Shown here: piece by piece, positions 39,271-50,410 of the stretch
Position numbering within the stretch: position 1 is the stretch's first letter
Layout of the letters: every line of letters starts with the position of its first letter
Source: Fragilaria crotonensis
Lineage: Eukaryota; Bacillariophyta; Fragilariophyceae; Fragilariales; Fragilariaceae
DNA length: 50,515 nt
NCBI GenBank assembly: GCA_022925895.1
Contig: JAKSYS010000464.1
Location: forward strand, 1-50,515
Reading direction: 5' to 3'
Notes under the pieces: model-generated
The model's input: only the letters and a program-made list of their open reading frames with translations
What the model was told of the DNA's origin: nothing
The model's database searches: none
Translations under genes and position numbers: made by a program

Positions 39271-39274
39271 CTAG

Positions 39275-41879
39275 TGTCTAGCCTCCCGACGGGGTTAATT
39301 AACCCCAAATGGGGTTAATTAACCCCGTATTTGCACATCACAAAAATTGTTCGCAACTACTTGCAAATCTTCCGTTCGACTAGTGTCTAAACGCCCGGGG
39401 GGGTATCTTTAATTAAAGACAAATCTGTCTTTATTTAAAGATGGCCATTTTCGTACGTTTTGCAAGACGGTCAATGTACGTTCGATACCACCATCAACAC
39501 GAAATTCGACATTGACAATGGCCGATTGCCGTCATCAATATCTTGACACATCTACACTAATGATCATAATGTAACATTTAGAACCTATTGATTGTTCACC
39601 ATGGAAGGAGGCTAGGTGGGTATGAAAGTCTAGCTTTCCAGAAAATCATCATTCTCGTGGTGCAGTCCTAAACAGGCTTTCATCGGACAGGAAGTACGAC
39701 CATGTTGACAAGAAGAACTGGCAGACTTGGCATTGTTGACCTGAAAGACAGACAAAGAAGGCAGGGCACTGTCCACTAGCAATTCCCTTCCTCCTCTTGT
39801 TTGATCCCAGGTGACAGACAGTCCCAGTGCTTGGGTCACCAAGCAACTCAAGCTTTCGCAATCGTGCTTCGCTCCTTGCTCGACAACCACTGCACGCAAA
39901 CAGCAATGATTGCAACCTCACCTCTGTCTAAACAGAAGCACAAGAATCATGTTCTCCGTCATCAGATGGGACTGCTGGCGGCAAAGTCAGCATGACATGT
40001 CTAAGCAGAGCAAAGGTAGTGAGAATTCAGGATTCGAAGTAATTTGGAGTTCAACAAATATAACGGATCATCATTGCACTCAAGAATGTCAGCGCCAGAA
40101 CACTGCAATGAATGAACATTTGAGATTGGCCTCCATAGGAACCTACCTCTCAAGAGAACTTCCATGACAAGTGTTGCTCAGCCCATTTGAATCAATGCAT
40201 CAGGGCAAAAGATGAATTCGATACGTTGATTGAGGTCTCAAATGAAATGATCTTACGTAGCCTCCGTAGGGCATGTACCAAAAATATGGTTCCACATCAC
40301 CTTCATTTGCAGTGTCTAACTCACGAAGAGTGAAACTTAGAGATAGTCGTCCGTTACATACCTTCACTTCAGAGAACGTCCAAGACATTTCTTGCGGACC
40401 GTTTGAGTCAATTGGAGTGGACGATGATGAAAGAATGCGGCAAATAAGGCCTCAAACGATGACCTTGTGCATAGAGTGCGTAGGCATGTACTGAAAACGT
40501 GTTATTTTTGACCTTAAAACTCGCCAAGAAAGGGCTCTAGTTTTCCTTTCTAAAGCATAAACCAGGAACTGTCGCTAACTAAGAAACACCCATTTGGCCC
40601 ACAGGGTTTAACTCAATGGAAACACTTTGGCCGTCTTAATTTTGTCAAAAACGAAAAATGAAGAAGTTGAGTAAGGGTCGAAATTGATCTTTAATTAAAG
40701 ATTTCACCAGTGAGCGATCTTTAATTAAAATTTCGGCGTTAGACACTAGAAACTTGGGCAGTGGCTCAAGGACCCCATGATTGTGCATGCCATCAAAGCC
40801 CAGTATCTGTATATTGTTTTCATCGAGAAACAAGAGTTTTCTGCATCGATTTTCTTGACCCTCTGATTTTTTCCTGTCATTTCTGATTTAGACTAGCAGT
40901 AGAAATAATACCCGATGCTACATAAAACTCACTATTCTGACACTCCTTTTGGCCTGCGGTTTGTTTACGCTCATGTCAAATTCAACCAAAAGTAAGGTGA
41001 CTATTGTGTGTCAAATACATTGAAGTATTGTATCTAAACATGAAACTTGTCGGGCGTTCAATATTTAAGTGACAGCAATCAATTAGAGAAAGACATCAAA
41101 CCAGAAAAAAAGCAGAAGAATCCTCGTGTAGAAAAAATACCAAAGTCTACGAAGGAGTAGGTGGTTTCGAATCCCCCGGTTTTAGATAATTCTCATCTAC
41201 ATATAGAAAAAGCTGAGGTGATCATCATCTTCAGTTTACCTTCTATGGTGATGAAGTACTCAGGACATTTGACCAGCTTGAAGAATTCACAAGTATAGGT
41301 TGATCGGAAAAAGGAACCCCAACGGACAATTTCCACACAGAAATCGTGTAGAATTTGTACCAAGCGTTGAAAAAAATTCTCTACTATGACAGATTTTGAA
41401 TTAAGAGTCAGAAGATGATTTCGAAGCGCTCGGCTTAAGGAGTGAGGATGCCAGATACTTCGAAAAGTTGTCGGTCACCGGTCACGCAGTAATGTTTTTT
41501 CAAGGTCTCAATTTGGCTTTGCAGAGTTGAATAAATTTGGACTTCAAAAAAAAACTGTTTTGAAGTTACGTAGAACCTCTACCACACTCTACGCAAGTTT
41601 GCATACCTTTAGTCAGAGACTGATCGGGGATGAAAGACGAAGTATCGCGCTTTTCTTTCACATCAGTGACTTCCACTGAAAACAAAGAAAGGAAAATGGA
41701 TCAAATGGATGCACTTAAGTATCGTCATCTTGCAACATAGATGACTGCAATTGGAGCACTTTTTCTGTGGCCGTGGTATTAAATGTACAGAAAAGCGTCT
41801 TGCACACGTACGAAAATGACAGGGTTAATTAAGGCAATTGACGGGGTTAATTAACCCCAAGGCTCCGGGAGGCTAGACA
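39275..41879 (+). mobile_element. Element A: CTAG-flanked, non-autonomous transposon interrupted by element B
   Basis: The left terminus TGTCTAGCCTCCCG (39275) and right terminus ending CGGGAGGCTAGACA (41879) are inverted repeats, flanked by CTAG at 39271-39274 and 41880-41883. Two GGGGTTAATTAACCCC palindromes lie inside the left end (39291-39306, 39311-39326) and one at the right (41843-41858), with a degenerate half nearby. Without B and one CTAG the element is about 1.24 kb, the same size as A' without C (about 1.23 kb). There is no coding sequence. Its right ~350 bp is shared with A' (inverted) and with the right half of D. Confidence 0.85.
39384..40745 (+). mobile_element. Element B nested in A, with demonstrable empty site in A'
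   Basis: Left end TGTCTAAACGCCC at 39384, right end GGCGTTAGACA at 40745; CTAG occurs on both sides (39380-39383, 40746-40749). The sequence outside, TTCCGTTCGA-CTAG | CTAG-AAACTTGGG, corresponds in the inverted copy A' (about 46752-46768) to TTCCGTTGGACTAGAAACTTGGG with a single CTAG. That is the uninterrupted target, so B inserted with a 4-bp duplication. Subterminal sequences hold ATCTTTAATTAAAGA-type palindromes rather than the GGGG version. No open frame with family features was found; it is presumably non-autonomous. Confidence 0.85.
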
Positions 41880-41883
41880 CTAG

Positions 41884-42139
41884 AAGGCAGGTGAGAATAG
41901 GTTGACACCAGCTTGTTCTTCCGCTCATTTTTGTGTGCCGTGATCCGTGATGCATGTGATGCCGGATGACACCACTCCTGAACCGAGCAAGAATTGTGTA
42001 GTGTGTGCGTGGGGTGAGGGGGGTTTTGTATCTTGTACTTGAAGGTTGATGAGAATAGGTTGCAAAGGCTGTCCCACATATATTAACATTTATGAGCTTC
42101 TCAATATGCATTAACATTTATTCGGCTGTTCCCTATACC
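41884..42139. other. Interval between element A and the hAT-like element
   Basis: About 255 bp without a gene. It contains a GGTGAGAATAGGTTGACACCAGCTTGTTCTT-like stretch (41890-41920) that resembles, in inverted orientation, a segment at 39085-39115 in the flank left of A. This suggests the flanks themselves contain an older repeat into which A inserted. Confidence 0.35.
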
Positions 42140-42493
42140 CAGGGGTGGGCAATTTAGGCGATCCGGCCGGCGCGCCTACCAGCGCCTAAAATAGGTTAAT
42201 TTAGGCGCTTTGTCAGACTTTGATTTAGGCGCAGGGGTTAGGGGTTAGGGGTACGGTACAGTGCCTCCGTGCCAGTACAAAATCGGGTTTAGAAATAACA
42301 ACCGTACTACAGTAGTTGAAATACAGTGAGCTACTGGTACCCACTACTGTTTATCGAAGTACTGTATACTGTATATTTATATATATATACAGCACGATGA
42401 TGAATATGTGCAATAATTTAGGCGCTTTGTCGAAGTCGAATTTAGGCGCCTATGCCCCTTTTTGAAGGCGGCCGCCTTAGAAACCCACCCCTG
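42140..42493 (+). mobile_element. hAT-like non-autonomous element (CAGGGGTGGG termini)
   Basis: Both ends carry CAGGGGTGGG in inverted orientation (42140 and 42493), followed by related subterminal GGCGC motifs: TTTAGGCG...TTTAGGCGC at the left, GCGCCTAT...CGCCTTAG at the right. The motif TTAGGCGC occurs at least five times. Flanking 8-mers are CCTATACC and CCTATCCT, an imperfect duplication. CAGGGG-type termini with 8-bp duplications are typical of hAT transposons. The interior is non-coding and includes a TATATATATATA tract. Confidence 0.6.
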
Positions 42494-43192
42494 CCTATCC
42501 TACTATATTATAAATTAATTGTGTGCGTGTGTGCGTGCGTGCGTCCGTCTGTTACGGAGTATGACCACTCTGGGGTACTGGATCAAATGAATACTGTCTC
42601 ATACTCGGAGTATGATATATGTCATACATGCATACTGGAGTACTCCGTAAGCGATGTCGGTAAGATTTGCATATCGTTAGTTGCGTCAGTCGTCGTCTGT
42701 TACGGAGTATGACCATCTGGGGTCTGCTACTTGCGTATAGTACTGAACTGTACAAACAGTACACACAACCGTGCACAACCCATACCGTACACGTATTCCA
42801 AAAGTCCGACCAATTGGGAGGTACATATGTACACGTTGGACGTTTTGGAAAATATCAGAAGCCACAGCGCCAGCCCGATCCGGCCACATTCAAGGCGAGT
42901 GTGTTCCTCTCGACTAGCCGTATCTTGTGTGTTTTGAAAAAATATACAAGCAGTTTCAGTCTCGTATTCCATATATTCTTCATAGTTAAAAGAACGTTTC
43001 CGCATGATGCTATGATATATATCTTGAATGTACGACAAGGTACCGTAGATACAAGCTCTCTACGAGTACTAGACAGAGTGCCGGAGTGCTGAGTGCTGAG
43101 TCAGGGGGAATGAGCGTTTCTTCTTCCATTGACGGCGTTCCCATTAAATATTTCCACCTGCATTGTAAGGTTCCACTGTAGAAGTACTTGTA
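42494..43192. other. Repeat-rich interval without a gene
   Basis: A (TG/CG) microsatellite lies at 42517-42548. The 19-mer CTGTTACGGAGTATGACCA occurs at 42549-42567 and again at 42697-42715, each followed by CT/TCTGGGGT. GTAC-containing words are frequent. No protein-coding frame with recognisable features was found. Confidence 0.45.
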
Positions 43193-43671
43193 CTCCCTCT
43201 GTCCCATAAAAAACCTCCCAGAACTTTTAACGAGAACACGTTTTCACCGTTACAATCAGTCATTCTGGTGTAGAAAATGATATCAATCCTACGAGCTGAC
43301 CATGCTGGCGCGTTGTGGATAAAAAAATTGCGCGTGGCGGTTATTTCCCCGTTTCGCCAATACCCTAAGTACTTTTGATTTGCAATACGTTCTTTGCATT
43401 GTGTCTTCACGACTTGTCTTGATGTTGCACTTCCCTCGTCAACAAAAGACGAAGAGATGATTCCTGAAGTTCGGTTACTCAAATGTCCTTCTGCTTGGTG
43501 TTTCACCAAAAAACTTGAATGGGCTGATTTTTCTGACTTTGAAATTGAAAAATGAACATTCAAATCATAAAGCCGACATTCACGTTTATTTGAATGACCT
43601 GACGTTTCGGGAGAATGCCAAAATTTTTTCTAAGTAGTGATCTCTCTGGTGTGTTTTTTATGGGACAGAGT
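43193..43671. mobile_element. Stowaway/mariner-like MITE
   Basis: The ends form inverted repeats: CTCCCTCTGTCCCATAAAAA at the left (43193) and, reading inward from the right (43671), ACTCTGTCCCATAAAAAAC. A TA dinucleotide flanks each side (43191-43192 and 43672-43673). The CTCCCT-GTCCCATAA terminus is characteristic of Stowaway-type MITEs moved by mariner transposases. The 479-bp length is at the upper range. A minus-strand open frame covers much of it but its end is encoded by the terminal repeat itself, so I do not call a gene. Confidence 0.65.
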
Positions 43672-44569
43672 TATTGATGTGTATAATTGAAATCTTGAGA
43701 CGAGTGTGGCATTATACCGTATAATACAGTATTATAGTACCAAATGGTATTATACAGCACAACCGTACAGTGATGAGTACCCTACTAGAGTACTGAACAC
43801 ACGGAGCTGTACTACATCATCGTAGAATCCCTCCACGTCAAAAACCAAACGCAGTGCCTTGTTTGCTACAACAGTGCTACAGTGTTGCTGCCACCATCAG
43901 ATACGTTGACTGTTACTCGAGACAACAAAGTGAAGGAATGATTTAACCTTAGAAACCTCCATAACCATGACACTGAATAGTAGTTTTCTTGCTGTTGACT
44001 AGTATTAGTAAGGTAGCTCATCTTGTTCTCCATCATTTACAAAGAGGCATTCATCCGCAATGGTGTCTATTCCACCAGACAAGTCAATCTTATAGTAATC
44101 GAATTCATCGCCAGCATCCTCAACATTGTTCTCCACATCATCAAAGAAAAAATCACCTTCCTCTTCGTCACCTGGCAAATCGAGCTAGCAGAACATTTGC
44201 AGTACTTAGTCTTGGACCCGCCCTCAGGCAGGTATACGGCACCAAAATGAATCCAGATCTCACTCTTACTTTTCATTATAGACAACTCGTTAGTACTCCT
44301 AATGGATTTGTGTGCCTGACGATACAAAAGGCATCAAATTGCTGCCACAAGTTTGGAGTTACTATGCCTGAAACTGCATTCCTCTGATGATTGCTCACGC
44401 ACGCAAATGGTAGCATCACCATATCACCATTAACCCTTAAGGCTAACAAGCATTCCAATTATACAAATATACCATACCAAAAAAACGAGTGTGGTATAAT
44501 ACAGTGGTATAATACCGCGGGTATAATACCCCAATTAAACAAACACATCAATAGACAGAGGGAGTACAG
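43672..44569 (-). pseudogene. Possible relic of a BED-finger transposase (about 44290-44000) in repeat-rich DNA
   Basis: On the minus strand around 44290-44210 there is a KSEIWIHFGAVY...KTKYCKC segment that resembles the first half of a BED zinc finger (W-x-x-F ... C-x-C). A frame change leads into an acidic stretch (LPGDEEEGDFFFDDVENNVEDAGDEFDYY) down to about 44010. BED fingers are typical of hAT transposases. The His pair of the finger was not found, so the call is weak. At 43700-43760 and 44485-44530 lie similar GGTATAATACAG/GTATTATAC tracts that may be ends of another element. Confidence 0.3.
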
Positions 44570-45020
44570 CAGAGTCCTGCACCGGGTATGAAGCCTGTGC
44601 CCATGGGTACCCAAGGCTGCCGGTAGGCAGGCTTGGACCACCCATGACCCACCCACGCTTCGCGCGGTCACGGCTGGACCACCGTTACCCACCCACGCCC
44701 GGTAGGGCGGTAACCACCCATCTACACCCACTGCCCATTTTCCTGCAAAATTCAGCCCGCCGCAGGCATTTTTCTAAAGTTGCTCTCACCGCGTACTATA
44801 CTCTACTACTCCTTACTAGCTACAGTATACTTGGAGTACAATGGTCGATTCGCGTTGGCAGGCTTGGACCACCCATTACCCACCCACGCTTTGCGAGTCA
44901 AGTTGGGACCACCCATTACCCACCCACGACTGGTTGGGCATGCCCATACCCAACCATTAACCATGGGTATGGGTGGGTAGTGGGTGGGTACTGGGTATGG
45001 GTACCCAGTGCAGGACTCTG
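44570..45020 (+). mobile_element. hAT-like non-autonomous element with perfect 8-bp target duplication
   Basis: The inverted termini CAGAGTCCTGCACCGGGTA (44570) and, from the right end (45020) inward, CAGAGTCCTGCACTGGGTA differ at one base. The 8-mer GAGTACAG directly flanks both sides (44562-44569 and 45021-45028). The interior repeats a GGACCACCCATTACCCACCCACG-like unit four times, and the right end has a matching GGGTGGGTAGTGGGTGGGTA inverse. CAGAG..-type ends with an 8-bp duplication identify a hAT-like element. No coding capacity. Confidence 0.8.
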
Positions 45021-45143
45021 GAGTACAGTACTCAATACTCTGTGTCGTGCGAATTCAGCCAGTATTTCACATTTCAAGCCGTAGATTTTTACGCCGAAAT
45101 TAGTCAAAAACGTCATCAATTCTATTCGTGTGATCACACTAGT

Positions 45144-45616
45144 ATATATAAAACCTAATTATAGAGGGTTAGCACCGTCTAGGAACCGTGAGGTTCCCAG
45201 AGTGTACCCCGTTCCGGCGTGCGTTAGCACGCGAGAACTTAATTACTACTGCTGTGGTTGGTTACCGTACTGTGGGGAAAAAACTTTGTATGGTTGTCTG
45301 ACGTTTGCCGTCGATTGCATGGAGTTGCACGGAGGATTTGATGAGTCGTAGCCATCTGCGTCGTGTTGAGGATGACCCTGATAAGAGTTTGTTCAAGCTT
45401 CTATTGCATAGATGTCGATCGTCGAAGCGTAGTAGCTGGGGGCGTTGGTGGTAGTAGGATACTTCGACTTGTTCTGCGGTGCGAGCGGTGTTGAGATTTT
45501 TGGTCTGTGTCTCTTCGTGTAGGACTGAGTTGCGAGCAAGCCAGAGAGTGCGTGTGAAGATGTGGATGGCGGAAATGCTCGTGCGGAGTCTCTGGAGTCC
45601 TTTGGGTTGATCTGAT
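45144..45616 (-). mobile_element. 5'-truncated LINE-type retrotransposon fragment with 18-bp target duplication
   Basis: The minus strand from about 45605 to 45250 encodes a polypeptide end with RTLWLARNSVLHEETQTK, then VSYYHQRPQLLRFDDRHLC and SLNKLLSGSSSTRRRWL. This pattern is what I remember from the C-termini of diatom non-LTR (LINE-like) polyproteins. A stop follows near 45265, then a 3' region ending in a TATATA tail at 45143-45149. The 18-mer TTCGTGTGATCACACTAG occurs immediately on both sides (45125-45142 and 45617-45634), the expected result of target-primed insertion of a truncated copy. The family identification is moderate; the duplication is seen directly. Confidence 0.6.
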
Positions 45617-46782
45617 TTCGTGTGATCACACTAGTGTCTAGCCTCCCGGAGCCTTGGGGTTAATTAACCCCGTCAATTGCCTTAATTAACCCCGTCATTT
45701 TCGTACGTGTGCAAGACGCTTTTCTGTACATTTAATACTACGGACCACATAAAAAAGTGCTCCAATTGCAGTCATCTATGTTACAAGATGACGATACTTA
45801 AGTGCATCCATTTGATCCATTTTCCTTTTCTTCATTTTCAGTGGAAGTCACTGATGTGAAAGAAAAGCGCGATACTGATTTTTGTCCCAATCAGTCTCTG
45901 ACTAAAGGTGTGCAAAAGTGCGTAGAGTGTGGTAGATGTTCTACGTACCTTCAAAACAGTTTTTTTTGAAGTCCAAATTCATTCAACTCTGCACAGACAA
46001 ATTGAGACGTTGACAAAACATTACTGGTGACCGATGACCGACAACGTTTCGAAGTATCTGGCATCCTCACTCCTTAAGCCGAGCGCTGCAAAATCATATT
46101 CTGACACTTAATTCAAAATCTGTCATAGTAGAGAATTTTTTCCAACGCTTGGTATAAATTCTACACGATTTCTGTGTGAAATTGTCCGTTGGGGTTCCTT
46201 TTTCCGATCAACCTATACTTGTGAATTCTTCAAACTGGTGAAATATCCTGCGTACTTCATCACCATTGAAGGTATACTGAAGATGATGATCACATCAGTT
46301 TTCTATCATGAGATGAGAATGGTCTAAAACCGAGGATCCGAAACCACCTCATCCTCCGTAGACTTTGGTATACATTCTACACGATTCTTCTACGTTTTTT
46401 CTGGTTTGATGTCTTTCTCTAATTGATTGCTGTCGCTTAAATATTGAGCGGCAGACAAGTTTCATGTTTAGAAACAATACTTCAACGTATTTGACACACA
46501 ATAGTCACCTGACTTTTGGTTGAATTTGAGATGATGAGCGTAATCAGCGGCAGGCCAAAGGAGTGTCGAAGTGAGTTTTACGTAGCATCGGGTATTATTT
46601 CTACTGCTTTTCTAAATCAGAAATGACAGGAAAAAATCAGAGGGTCAAGAAAATTGATGCAGAAAAACTATTGTTTCTCGATGAAAAACAATATGCAGAT
46701 ACTGGGCTTTGACGGCATGCACATTCATGGGGTCCTTGAGCCACTGCCCAAGTTTCTAGTCCAACGGAAGATTTGCAACTAG

Positions 46783-49568
46783 TGTCTAGCCACCCGGGGC
46801 CATGGGGTTAATTAACCCCGTCATTTGCCTTAATTAACCCCATCAAATTTTTGCGACTCCGTGTACAAAAAATACTATCATCTACTCAAAAATGGTGTTG
46901 ACCATGACGGTCAATACGGATGTGTTCACACTAATGAAAGCACATTGAACTATTGAGATTAGGCTTACAACTCATCAAGGTGTGCATGGTTTCGAGCCAG
47001 GTGGTTCAAAAAGCACCGTTGGCCATTTTTTGTTGCACAAAGATACACAATTTTTCCATCATCACCGCAATCTGAGCACTGCCATGTCGTCTTCTTCTGA
47101 CACTCCTTGCACCTCCCTTGATATCTGAATGTGGTTTTTTCGCCTTTGCTGTTCTTCAGGCGCTTCACAGGTGTTAAATGAGTGAGCACACCAGCCCTTG
47201 GACCTCCACTTTCAAGTGCTCGGATACAGGCATCTTGAAACGACCTTCCGGAAGTAGGCGATGACCGAGGTCGCGTTACTCGACCTCTATTGCCATATGA
47301 ATTGTCAATGAGCTCTTCCGAAAGAACAGAATAGAATTCCTTTTGATTGTATTCAACGGTTGGTGCATTCTTAAAGGCAGAAAAGACGAGCCAGGTATCA
47401 ACAATGATCATCGAAAAAATTGATAAATTCACTCGTGTAGACCAATCCTTTGTCTCAATTTTCTTTTCAATCCGAAGGTCATCCTGTCGCAGTCTGTTGT
47501 GTTTGTCGATAGCTGCACATGTAGAGTAGTAAAGCTCTGCAATCTTTGGTTGCTTTATGGAGAACATCACCTGCTCTGGAGCTGCGTTCGGAGTTTGATC
47601 CACCTGTCTCCAACGACAGCGAACGTAGGGTGTTCCATCTTCAAGGGAACCAGCACTTGAAATAAAGTACCGACGCTCACGATCCATCCAGACGAATGCA
47701 CCCAGTTCTGGTGTGAGCTCCGCATCGATGGCTGGCACTGCTCTCTTCAATGCCATGAAGTCTCCTCGGTTTGCCAGCTCCACGCTTGAAAGGAATGCTT
47801 TCGGAAAACCTCGAGTTGCTGTCTTCACAACTCCAATGAAACGAGGCCATTCCTGAATAATTCTTCTGCTGCTCCCACTGAAGCAAAGTACGAATCGGCA
47901 CAAACAATCCTGTTTGAACCAAACCAAGGTGCAACAACTTGTTTCAAAACGTTCGTACCATGTAGCAAGCTTGTCTCGTTTGCTCCGAACACTTCCTCTT
48001 CCACGCCAGGAAGGTCAACACCCTTCACAAGCTTAAGGCGAAGCATCACGCCACTCCTTCCACACGCTGCATTCTGTATTTCACAGCCATTCTCAGGCTT
48101 ACGATCAATTGCAACATACTGAGGGAGGCCATGGTTGATCCAGTGCCCTCCCTGACCGTACCAACGGCTCATAGATTCGTCGACACAGATTAGATCGGAA
48201 GGGTTGAAGTAATTTGCACGATGGTCGTTGAAGTTGTTGACGAAGTCGTCAACCAGCATCCATCGATATTGCTCTGAGGATACCCCCTCGTCAGGGACGT
48301 CAGGCTGGTGACTCCACCGAAGGCATCGAAAAAGGTCTTCAAACCTGTGTTTCGACATGCCTGTCAAGCCAAATTGTGGCGCAGGTCGATACTTTGACCA
48401 TGCCGTCGTTTGCCACAAGGAGGTCCTGGTGGTGAACTCAAACTTCGTGGTGAGGATGAAAATGCCAAACAATTTTAACAACTCACTCTCTGTTGTCTCC
48501 CTTAACTCCAGCTTGCTCAATTGACGGTTCGTCCATCCAACCATATCAAGAAGTTGCTTTGGAGGGAACATCAAGAGAAAAAAATCCAACGGCGACATAT
48601 CCTGCGTTCCTGCCCTGTTTTGACCAGGAACAAATACTTCACCAACCATGTTCCTAATACTCCAAACACGCAGTGGTACATTGCCATTCAATGGCGGGTC
48701 ATTGATTGCCGCCCTTACCCATTCAATTCCATTAACAGTTGCAATGGTTTGACGTGCAGAATTATTTTCCTCGTTCCCTGCTTCCTCATCCTCTTGAGGG
48801 AATTCTTCAGTATCATCAGGAGAAGTAGCCGGTGCAACTATTTCACCCACATTGTTCTCGGCAATGTTCACGGGCATTGGGTTGGGATCGTTCGTTGCAG
48901 GGGATGTGGAGGTTGGATTTGTTGCAGCAACTGAAACGGAGTTTTGATTCACGCTTTCAGTCACGAGTCCATTGCCATCGTTGGGAATGCTTGGAACGTG
49001 ACCGGCCTTCACTGACCTTGAATTCAGTGTGGTTGTCTTTATTGTATTCCCACCAAGGAAATAGTTTGCTGTGATCAAAGTCACGGTACGCTTCTTGGTG
49101 GATGATGGGGTTGTGTCAACGCGACAGACCATTCCGTTGAGAAGCTTGGTTTTTCGCGTTGCTTCCGTATCTTCGATGGCACTCGATCAGGGAAGTCACA
49201 TGGATAGCTTTTGCGTGCACCCTTGCACCAAACTGGAAACGAGGATCCGTTGCGCTCATTTTGAGATCAATCGATGAAGATGGAGATGAGCATTGACGGC
49301 ATGAATATCATGGTCCGGAGAATTCCCATAACCCAAAAAATTCACGAAAAAAAATTACAGCTCCAGAATTTCTTTAATAACTCAATTACAAACAACATCC
49401 ATCAATTGCCTATTTAAACCATGCAACCTTTTACTGTTCCAAGGAGATTGGCCAAGTTTGGAGTCCAACGGACCTTCTCCAAGATAAGGGGAAGCATATC
49501 CGAGATTGGCAAATACGGGGTTAATTAACCCCAAATGGGGTTAATTAACCCCGTCGGGTGGCTAGACA
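46783..49568 (-). mobile_element. Element C: piggyBac-type transposon with CTAG target duplication
   Basis: 2,786 bp. Perfect inverted ends TGTCTAGCCACCCG (46783) and CGGGTGGCTAGACA (49568), flanked by CTAG (46779-46782, 49569-49572). Palindromes GGGGTTAATTAACCCC at 46804-46819, 49517-49532 and 49537-49552. It contains the PGBD-type transposase gene, covering most of its length. The flanks, read on the minus strand as GTTCGCTA-CTAG and CTAG-TTGCAAATC, correspond to GTTCGCAACTACTTGCAAATC in A (39350-39368): in A the site reads CTAC, in A' CTAG. A short divergence between the copies thus created the target. C is the likely source of transposase for A, B and D. Confidence 0.85.
46965..49259 (-). 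CDS. PiggyBac/PGBD-type (DDE_Tnp_1_7) transposase, two single-base frame changes
   Basis: From ATG 49259 (MSATDPRFQFGARVHAKAI). An apparent extra A in the A5 run near 49158 shifts frame; the main frame then runs from about 49150 to 47850 and, after one missing base near 47850, from there to the stop at 46965. Order: short N-terminal domain, Ser/Thr/Pro-Asn-rich linker with acidic EEFPQEDEEAGNEE, then DDE_Tnp_1_7 core: RFEDLFRCLRW, the first Asp in LICVDESMSRWYG (about 48182), QYVAIDRKPENG, the second Asp in IVCADSYFAS (about 47898) and a third acidic pair in HNRLRQDDLRIE (about 47478). The C-terminal Cys/His domain (CKECQKKTTWQCSDCG...CFLNHLARNH) is the piggyBac-type zinc-binding tail. All catalytic residues seem present, so apart from the two indels the gene looks intact and could be active. 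Confidence 0.8.
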
Positions 49569-49658
49569 CTAGTAGCGAACAATTTTTGTGATGTGCAAAT
49601 ACGGGGTTAATTAACCCCATTTGGGGTTAATTAACCCCGTCGGGAGGCTAGACACTAG

Positions 49659-50406
49659 TGTCTAAAGGCCCGACGGGGTTAATTAACCCCATTTGGGGTT
49701 AATTAACCCCGTATTTGCGATTCTCCGAAATGCTTCCCCCTAATCTTGTCCGATGTCCGTCGGACTCCAGACTTGGCCTATCTCCTTCGAACACTGACAG
49801 GTTGCATGGCCTACGTAGGCAATAGCTCAATGTTGTTTGTTATTCAGTTATTAAACAAAATCTGGAGCTAAAAAAATATGCGTGTAATTTCGTCGTTCAT
49901 TTTTGACCATGACATCACATCGTCCACAGCTCACGATGTTCAAATCCAATTTAGCTCATAAGTGGCGGACATGATTCTCCGAAAGGCTGTCGTACATCAA
50001 TCACTCAGCATGTTTGTCTCAAAGTCTCAACACGACATTGTAGAATTGAATGAAAATGGACTTACAAAAATAAAAAGCTGTTTTGATCTTACGTAGAACA
50101 TGTACCAAGCGCTACGCAAGATTGCATGCCCGTAGTCAGAGACTGATTGGGGATGAAAAAATGAAATATCGAGCTTTTTTTCACATCCCTGATTTCCACA
50201 AAAGTTAAACAAAGAGGAAAATGGATCAAATGAATGCAGATAAGTGTCATTATCTTATGACATTGATGAGTGCAAACAGAGTATTTTTTCCAGTGGTCCG
50301 TAGTATAAAATGTACAGAAAAGCGTCTTGCACACGTACGAAAATGACGGGGTTAATTAAGGCAAGTGACGGGGTTAATTAAGGCAAGTGGTCCGGGCCTT
50401 TAGACA
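49659..50406 (+). mobile_element. Element D: short CTAG-flanked chimeric non-autonomous element
   Basis: 748 bp. Inverted ends TGTCTAAAGGCCCG (49659) and CGGGCCTTTAGACA (50406), flanked by CTAG at 49655-49658 (shared with the right border of A') and 50407-50410. The left ~200 bp resembles, in inverted orientation, the right subterminal part of C (about 49340-49568: GGAGATTGGCCAAGTTTGGA / TCCAGACTTGGCCTATCTCC). The right ~350 bp resembles the right end of A (41540-41860), including the ACAGAAAAGCGTCTTGCACA block. Palindromes at 49675-49690 and 49695-49710; the right end has GGGGTTAATTAAGGC half-sites. No coding capacity. Confidence 0.8.
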
Positions 50407-50410
50407 CTAG

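Follow-up and report, generated by a model that had tools for sequence, protein, structure and literature searches.

The genome of the freshwater diatom Fragilaria crotonensis contains a lineage of piggyBac-like transposons that duplicate the tetranucleotide CTAG. The lineage is represented here by element C, a copy situated in contig JAKSYS010000464.1 of assembly GCA_022925895.1 (the whole analysed stretch, 50,515 nucleotides, is called the window), and relatives were surveyed in the complete assembly (62.1 Mb, 881 contigs). Duplication of CTAG is genuine and found throughout this lineage within the F. crotonensis genome. With a probability of about 0.85, element C and its relatives move by a cut-and-paste mechanism driven by a DDD transposase of the piggyBac type, and 4-nt staggered joining at the CTAG palindrome leads to the duplication of CTAG. 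An earlier note on this DNA had described C as an element with perfect inverted ends, flanked by CTAG on both sides and encoding a PGBD/DDE_Tnp_1_7 transposase with the Asp residues and a Cys/His tail. All of this stands, although the transposase is distributed over broken frames.

CTAG as the target site

The inverted repeat of C is perfect and 14 bp long, the sequence TGTCTAGCCACCCG forming the exact termini (46783-46796 on the plus strand and 49555-49568 on the minus strand). The window contains six matches to it with at most two mismatches, against 0.14 expected by chance. Besides C, four elements that end in TGTCTA and are flanked by CTAG, nested and tandem, are found within 39271-50410 (Table 1). 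Two of them, B and B', are approximately 92% identical over 1143 aligned positions, and each retains an unoccupied target site. The site of element A is unoccupied in B' and contains one CTAG (87 aligned bases, four mismatches). The site of C is unoccupied in B, once A is removed, and contains a single GTAG, as opposed to CTAG twice around C (91 aligned bases, three mismatches, no gap).

A genome search blind to the flanks yielded 50 ends TGTCTAGCCNCCCG and none for the reversed control pattern. The flanks were typed for exact matches only, from the first 100 of 151 matches listed, and CTAG adjoins 47 of the 50 ends, the remaining three being both ends on contig C456 and one end on contig C501. 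The background frequency of CTAG in the window is 83 per 50512 tetranucleotides. Ends of the TGTCTAAASGCCCG type have 94 matches in the genome versus two for the reversed control. After five ends without TGTCTA are left out, CTAG is present at 72 of 89 ends, or at 66 of 83 if one also leaves out six ends with a mismatched inverted repeat, listed solely through a C four bases out. Around 30 transposase loci a pattern search found 52 ends, 50 with CTAG and two with GTAG; seven further ends missed by that pattern (one each at L048, L049 and L050, two each at L054 and L060) have CTAG in six cases and GTAG in one.

Both flanks could be compared in 41 paired elements: 31 pairs are CTAG/CTAG, four are identical but different from CTAG (CTTG, CTTG, TTAG, CTAA), six are unequal, and none is TTAA/TTAA. 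In the four identical non-CTAG pairs the fifth base is unequal, and thus the duplication is exactly 4 bp. A 6-bp duplication of ACTAGT was rejected because the base outside CTAG varies. The preference for CTAG is strong, with a few copies at TTAG, CTAA and CTTG. The unoccupied sites, the end counts and the pairs therefore bear out the suggestion of the earlier note that a piggyBac-type lineage inserts at and duplicates CTAG.

The transposase

An intact relative matches PF13843 (DDE_Tnp_1_7) with E 1.6e-45, and no other Pfam family was over the cut-off in the scanned proteins. The listed matches to this family in the genome number 84, fragments included, and stop-to-stop frames of 758-811 codons are present at ten loci other than C. 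The transposase is homologous to the piggyBac type, with a similar predicted fold, a DDD triad of three conserved aspartates and a Cys/His tail; this C-terminal tail has five invariant cysteines, and its first part can be aligned with animal PGBDs. In a fold comparison of the catalytic core, no fold stood out beyond piggyBac, piggyBat and Tn5. Downstream of the first catalytic Asp, the protein has a loop that is strongly conserved (WYGxGGxWINxGLPxY) and 6-8 residues longer than in piggyBac.

In C itself, the two minus-strand transposase frames overlap each other, and a third frame (49116-49307) contains a stretch resembling the start of the transposase in intact relatives, likely the start of the C protein. 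As the transposase is spread over separate frames, this copy is broken and would move only with the help of another one. A copy on contig C608 is 99.64% identical to C over 2788 aligned positions (two mismatches, six gap openings) and has unlike flanks; the CTAG lineage has moved recently.

PF13843 is also carried by a public F. crotonensis protein named "xylulose kinase" on contig C54 (105902 bases). Either the name is wrong, as it appears, or the protein is a fusion.

Phylogeny, subterminal palindromes and the ancestral target

The genome has a second DDE_Tnp_1_7 lineage, with CGG ends and variable, A/T-rich 4-bp duplications. Its inverted ends were found by comparing two copies; all 70 end rows were taken in and gave 23 pairs (the same 23 result from 52 rows), of which 20 are identical. 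A quick tree of 67 proteins, without a root, separates three groups, namely the CTAG lineage, the variable-site lineage and the PGBDs of animals, by branches with SH-aLRT 99-100. Environmental proteins are also part of the tree, and homologous proteins at 42-79% identity were found. CTAG copies are present in every main branch of their lineage (the support of the 19-row branch is 94), and thus the targeting of CTAG probably dates far back in this lineage. A scan of a viral-contig collection gave one contig from another source (locus L071), with a protein 61% identical and a left end CTAG-TGTCTATCC; the right end of this element was not found in 9.3 kb. A scan of a genome-contig collection gave no relatives.

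The palindromes near the ends vary by subfamily: GGGGTTAATTAACCCC in that of C, TGTCCTTAATTAAGGACA, TCTTTAATTAAAGA and a weak CCTTATATAAGG in others, and ACTGAATTCAGT in the variable-site lineage. In piggyBac, the Cys-rich tail is reported to bind a palindromic-like internal repeat (PMC7351741). Given their placing and variation, the palindromes would suit the role of putative binding sites of this tail better than that of a relic of TTAA. The latter was the inference of the earlier note, in which TTAA was the ancestral target and TTAATTAA within the palindromes perhaps its memory. In its favor, TTAA is the target of animal elements, piggyBat among them, in the papers cited here, and a core of this kind (AATT/TTAA) is common to most of the CTAG-lineage palindromes observed. 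However, the palindromes differ among subfamilies and in the second lineage, and that lineage uses variable sites. The proposed comparison of the transposase with PGBDs did set the CTAG lineage apart, but with three groups and no outgroup the tree is silent on which target is ancestral. TTAA ancestry with such a relic is improbable, though the shared core leaves some room for a weak form of it.

Proposed mechanism and alternative readings

By analogy with piggyBac, whose superfamily is marked by seamless excision via 4-nt hairpins, excision would proceed via hairpins on the 4-nt flank. The loop downstream of the first catalytic Asp, the counterpart of which grips TTAA in piggyBac, may read the target, and the Cys-rich tail may hold the subterminal palindromes. 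C, B, B', A and D would be mobilised in trans by intact copies elsewhere. At L034, C153, C647, C45 and C501 (L088-L091, L094-L097), CTAG is separated from the element end by one to four additional bases (T, AG, TAG or TAAG), the C501 end being CTAG plus one extra T. One possibility, somewhat short of even odds, is that the 6-8-residue insertion in the loop has rewritten the outer bases of the piggyBac-type target code (T..A versus C..G, with the inner TA kept), that the second lineage has dropped the outer-base rule, so that target choice would be an evolvable property of this loop, and that the extra bases could be the remainder of the 4-nt flap of the donor.

An alternative is that only TA is duplicated, the elements ending in GTGTCTA...TAGACAC and the CTAG palindrome running into the element. 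The CTAG/CTAG pairs taken by themselves fit either reading, and some single ends have GTAG, where the outermost base alone is changed. However, several of the GTAG ends are CTAG with extra bases, the CTTG/CTTG pairs of two elements contain no TA, which rules out a 2-bp duplication, and the TTAG/TTAG and CTAA/CTAA pairs are identical over four bases and not at the fifth. Contradicted by these four matching pairs, this reading was rejected and has hardly any chance of being right. Just as remote is the idea, named in the earlier note as a possible refutation, that CTAG is part of the element end, carried along with no target duplication: CTAG is indeed near-constant beside TGTCTA, but the tetranucleotide occurs once in the unoccupied sites and the TTAG, CTAA and CTTG pairs are identical. 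Finally, IS5-type elements favor YTAR sites, but it is extremely unlikely that an unrelated transposase, e.g. of the IS5/Harbinger kind, moves the elements with the piggyBac-type gene as a passenger, as PF13843 is the only Pfam family over the cut-off in the scanned proteins and the gene repeatedly lies between matching ends, at many loci and in subfamilies that share 46-79% identity with the C transposase.

Several observations weigh against piggyBac-type cut-and-paste transposition at CTAG. The six unequal pairs are those on contigs C153, C647, C45, C43, C188 and C592. The first three become CTAG duplications once 2-4 extra junction bases are allowed, and the C43 pair (CTAG/CCAG) is one base apart; the C188 and C592 pairs are left unexplained, as are C456, with CTAG at neither end, and L060. 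The loop lies in a low-confidence part of the predicted model (residues 379-401), and thus the evidence for its role in target reading is its sequence together with the piggyBac precedent. Neither excision nor transposition was observed as an event.

Nested and neighboring elements

The single CTAG common to B' and D implies that one of them used the target duplication of the other as its insertion site. Elsewhere in the genome, a search for sites that cover both flanks of the copies on contigs C415 and C682 gave none. The right flank of the C415 copy is the start of another repeat. A repeat beginning GGGCCACCCTTATGAG (C415:37824-37934) directly adjoins the CTAA duplication of one element and has near-identical copies on C497, C785, C391, C394, C218, C17 and C61.

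Table 1. Location of element C, its parts, adjacent elements and the loci of the variable-site lineage
Feature	Location	Strand	Evidence or flanks
Element C, transposon of 2786 bp with 14-bp inverted ends and a frame-broken transposase	46783..49568	-	End search, PF13843 profile
CTAG, left target duplication of C	46779..46782		Letters and unoccupied-site comparison
CTAG, right target duplication of C	49569..49572		Letters and unoccupied-site comparison
C transposase frame, part 1	47825..49186	-	PF13843 profile positions 1-229, E 1.3e-27
C transposase frame, part 2 and Cys/His tail	46965..48014	-	PF13843 positions 232-346, E 6.3e-6
Subterminal palindrome GGGGTTAATTAACCCC of C, proposed site of the Cys-rich tail	46804..46819; also 49517-49532, 49537-49552		Inference
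Element B' (TGTCTAGCCTCCCG ends), host of nested C	45635..49654		CTAG at 45631-45634 and 49655-49658
Stretch of B' corresponding to the unoccupied target of A, one CTAG	46700..46777	+	Alignment
Element B	39275..41879		CTAG at 39271-39274 and 41880-41883
Stretch of B corresponding to the unoccupied target of C, GTAG replacing CTAG	39290..39383	within B	Alignment
Element A, nested in B; left end of the TGTCTAAACGCCCG type, right end diverged	39384..40745		CTAG at 39380-39383 and 40746-40749
Element D, 748 bp, non-coding, tandem with B'	49659..50406		CTAG 49655-49658 common with B'; right CTAG 50407-50410
Variable-site lineage loci	L061-L064, L067-L069 on contigs C162, C2, C259, C201, C24, C416, C706

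Comparison with known systems

A large family in one lake diatom duplicates CTAG and not TTAA, and thus a targeting rule held as a hallmark of the piggyBac group has changed in nature. According to a report on the piggyBac structure, no base other than T can satisfy the contact with the outer T-A pair (PMC7351741). Among open-access papers combining piggyBac, CTAG and a target-duplication term, none appeared, from titles and the beginnings of abstracts, to describe a CTAG-specific lineage, and no open-access literature combining DDE_Tnp_1_7 and diatom was found. Two lineages in one genome, one following the CTAG rule and the other free in its 4-bp sites, are natural material for finding the target-reading residues, and piggyBac-type gene-delivery tools with another site might result. 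Annotation requiring TTAA would miss such elements.

The hallmarks of the piggyBac superfamily are duplication of TTAA (PMC2872659, PMC9587614) and inverted ends of 12-19 bp with the terminal motif CC[C/T]T (PMC2872659). Here the length of the ends, 14 bp, and the 4-bp duplication agree with this description, while the ends start with TGTCTA and the duplicated sequence, in the ends and pairs counted above, is predominantly CTAG and in no pair TTAA. Kolobok elements have 5'-RR/YY-3' ends and also duplicate TTAA (PMC9587614); membership in this group was rejected, as the ends start with TG, the duplication is CTAG and the Pfam family is PF13843.

The F. crotonensis elements share with piggyBac of Trichoplusia ni and piggyBat of Myotis the DDD core and fold, the Cys-rich tail, the duplication of a 4-bp palindrome centered on TA, and the subterminal palindromic repeats. 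They differ in the target (CTAG versus TTAA), in the ends (TGTCTA versus CCYT), in the longer loop after the first Asp, and in an added N-terminal domain. Pokey of Daphnia is of the piggyBac kind, tolerates other outer bases, and forms tandem copies with one target duplication in common, as do B' and D; however, 88% of its insertions are at TTAA and 12% at other sites, the minor ones including TTAT, ATAA and CTAA, and CTAG is absent from the published table (PMC3849761). Non-TTAA duplications (TTAG, CTAA, GTAA, TATG and others) are reported for animal piggyBac families, but as few scattered cases ascribed by the authors to few mutations, with no lineage-wide CTAG rule among those described (PMC10813416). 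The piggyBac-derived PiggyMac of Paramecium produces 4-base 5' overhangs centered at TA with free outer bases, resembling the variable-site lineage; unlike the elements considered here, it is domesticated, removes germline DNA and, as described, has no CTAG preference (PMC3077386). An element from the diatoms Phaeodactylum and Thalassiosira is weakly related to piggyBac, and the passage describing it gives no target duplication (PMC2806351). Thus the CTAG lineage is piggyBac-like in fold and duplication geometry and lacks two textbook marks, TTAA and the CCYT ends; it is a variant and not a standard piggyBac.
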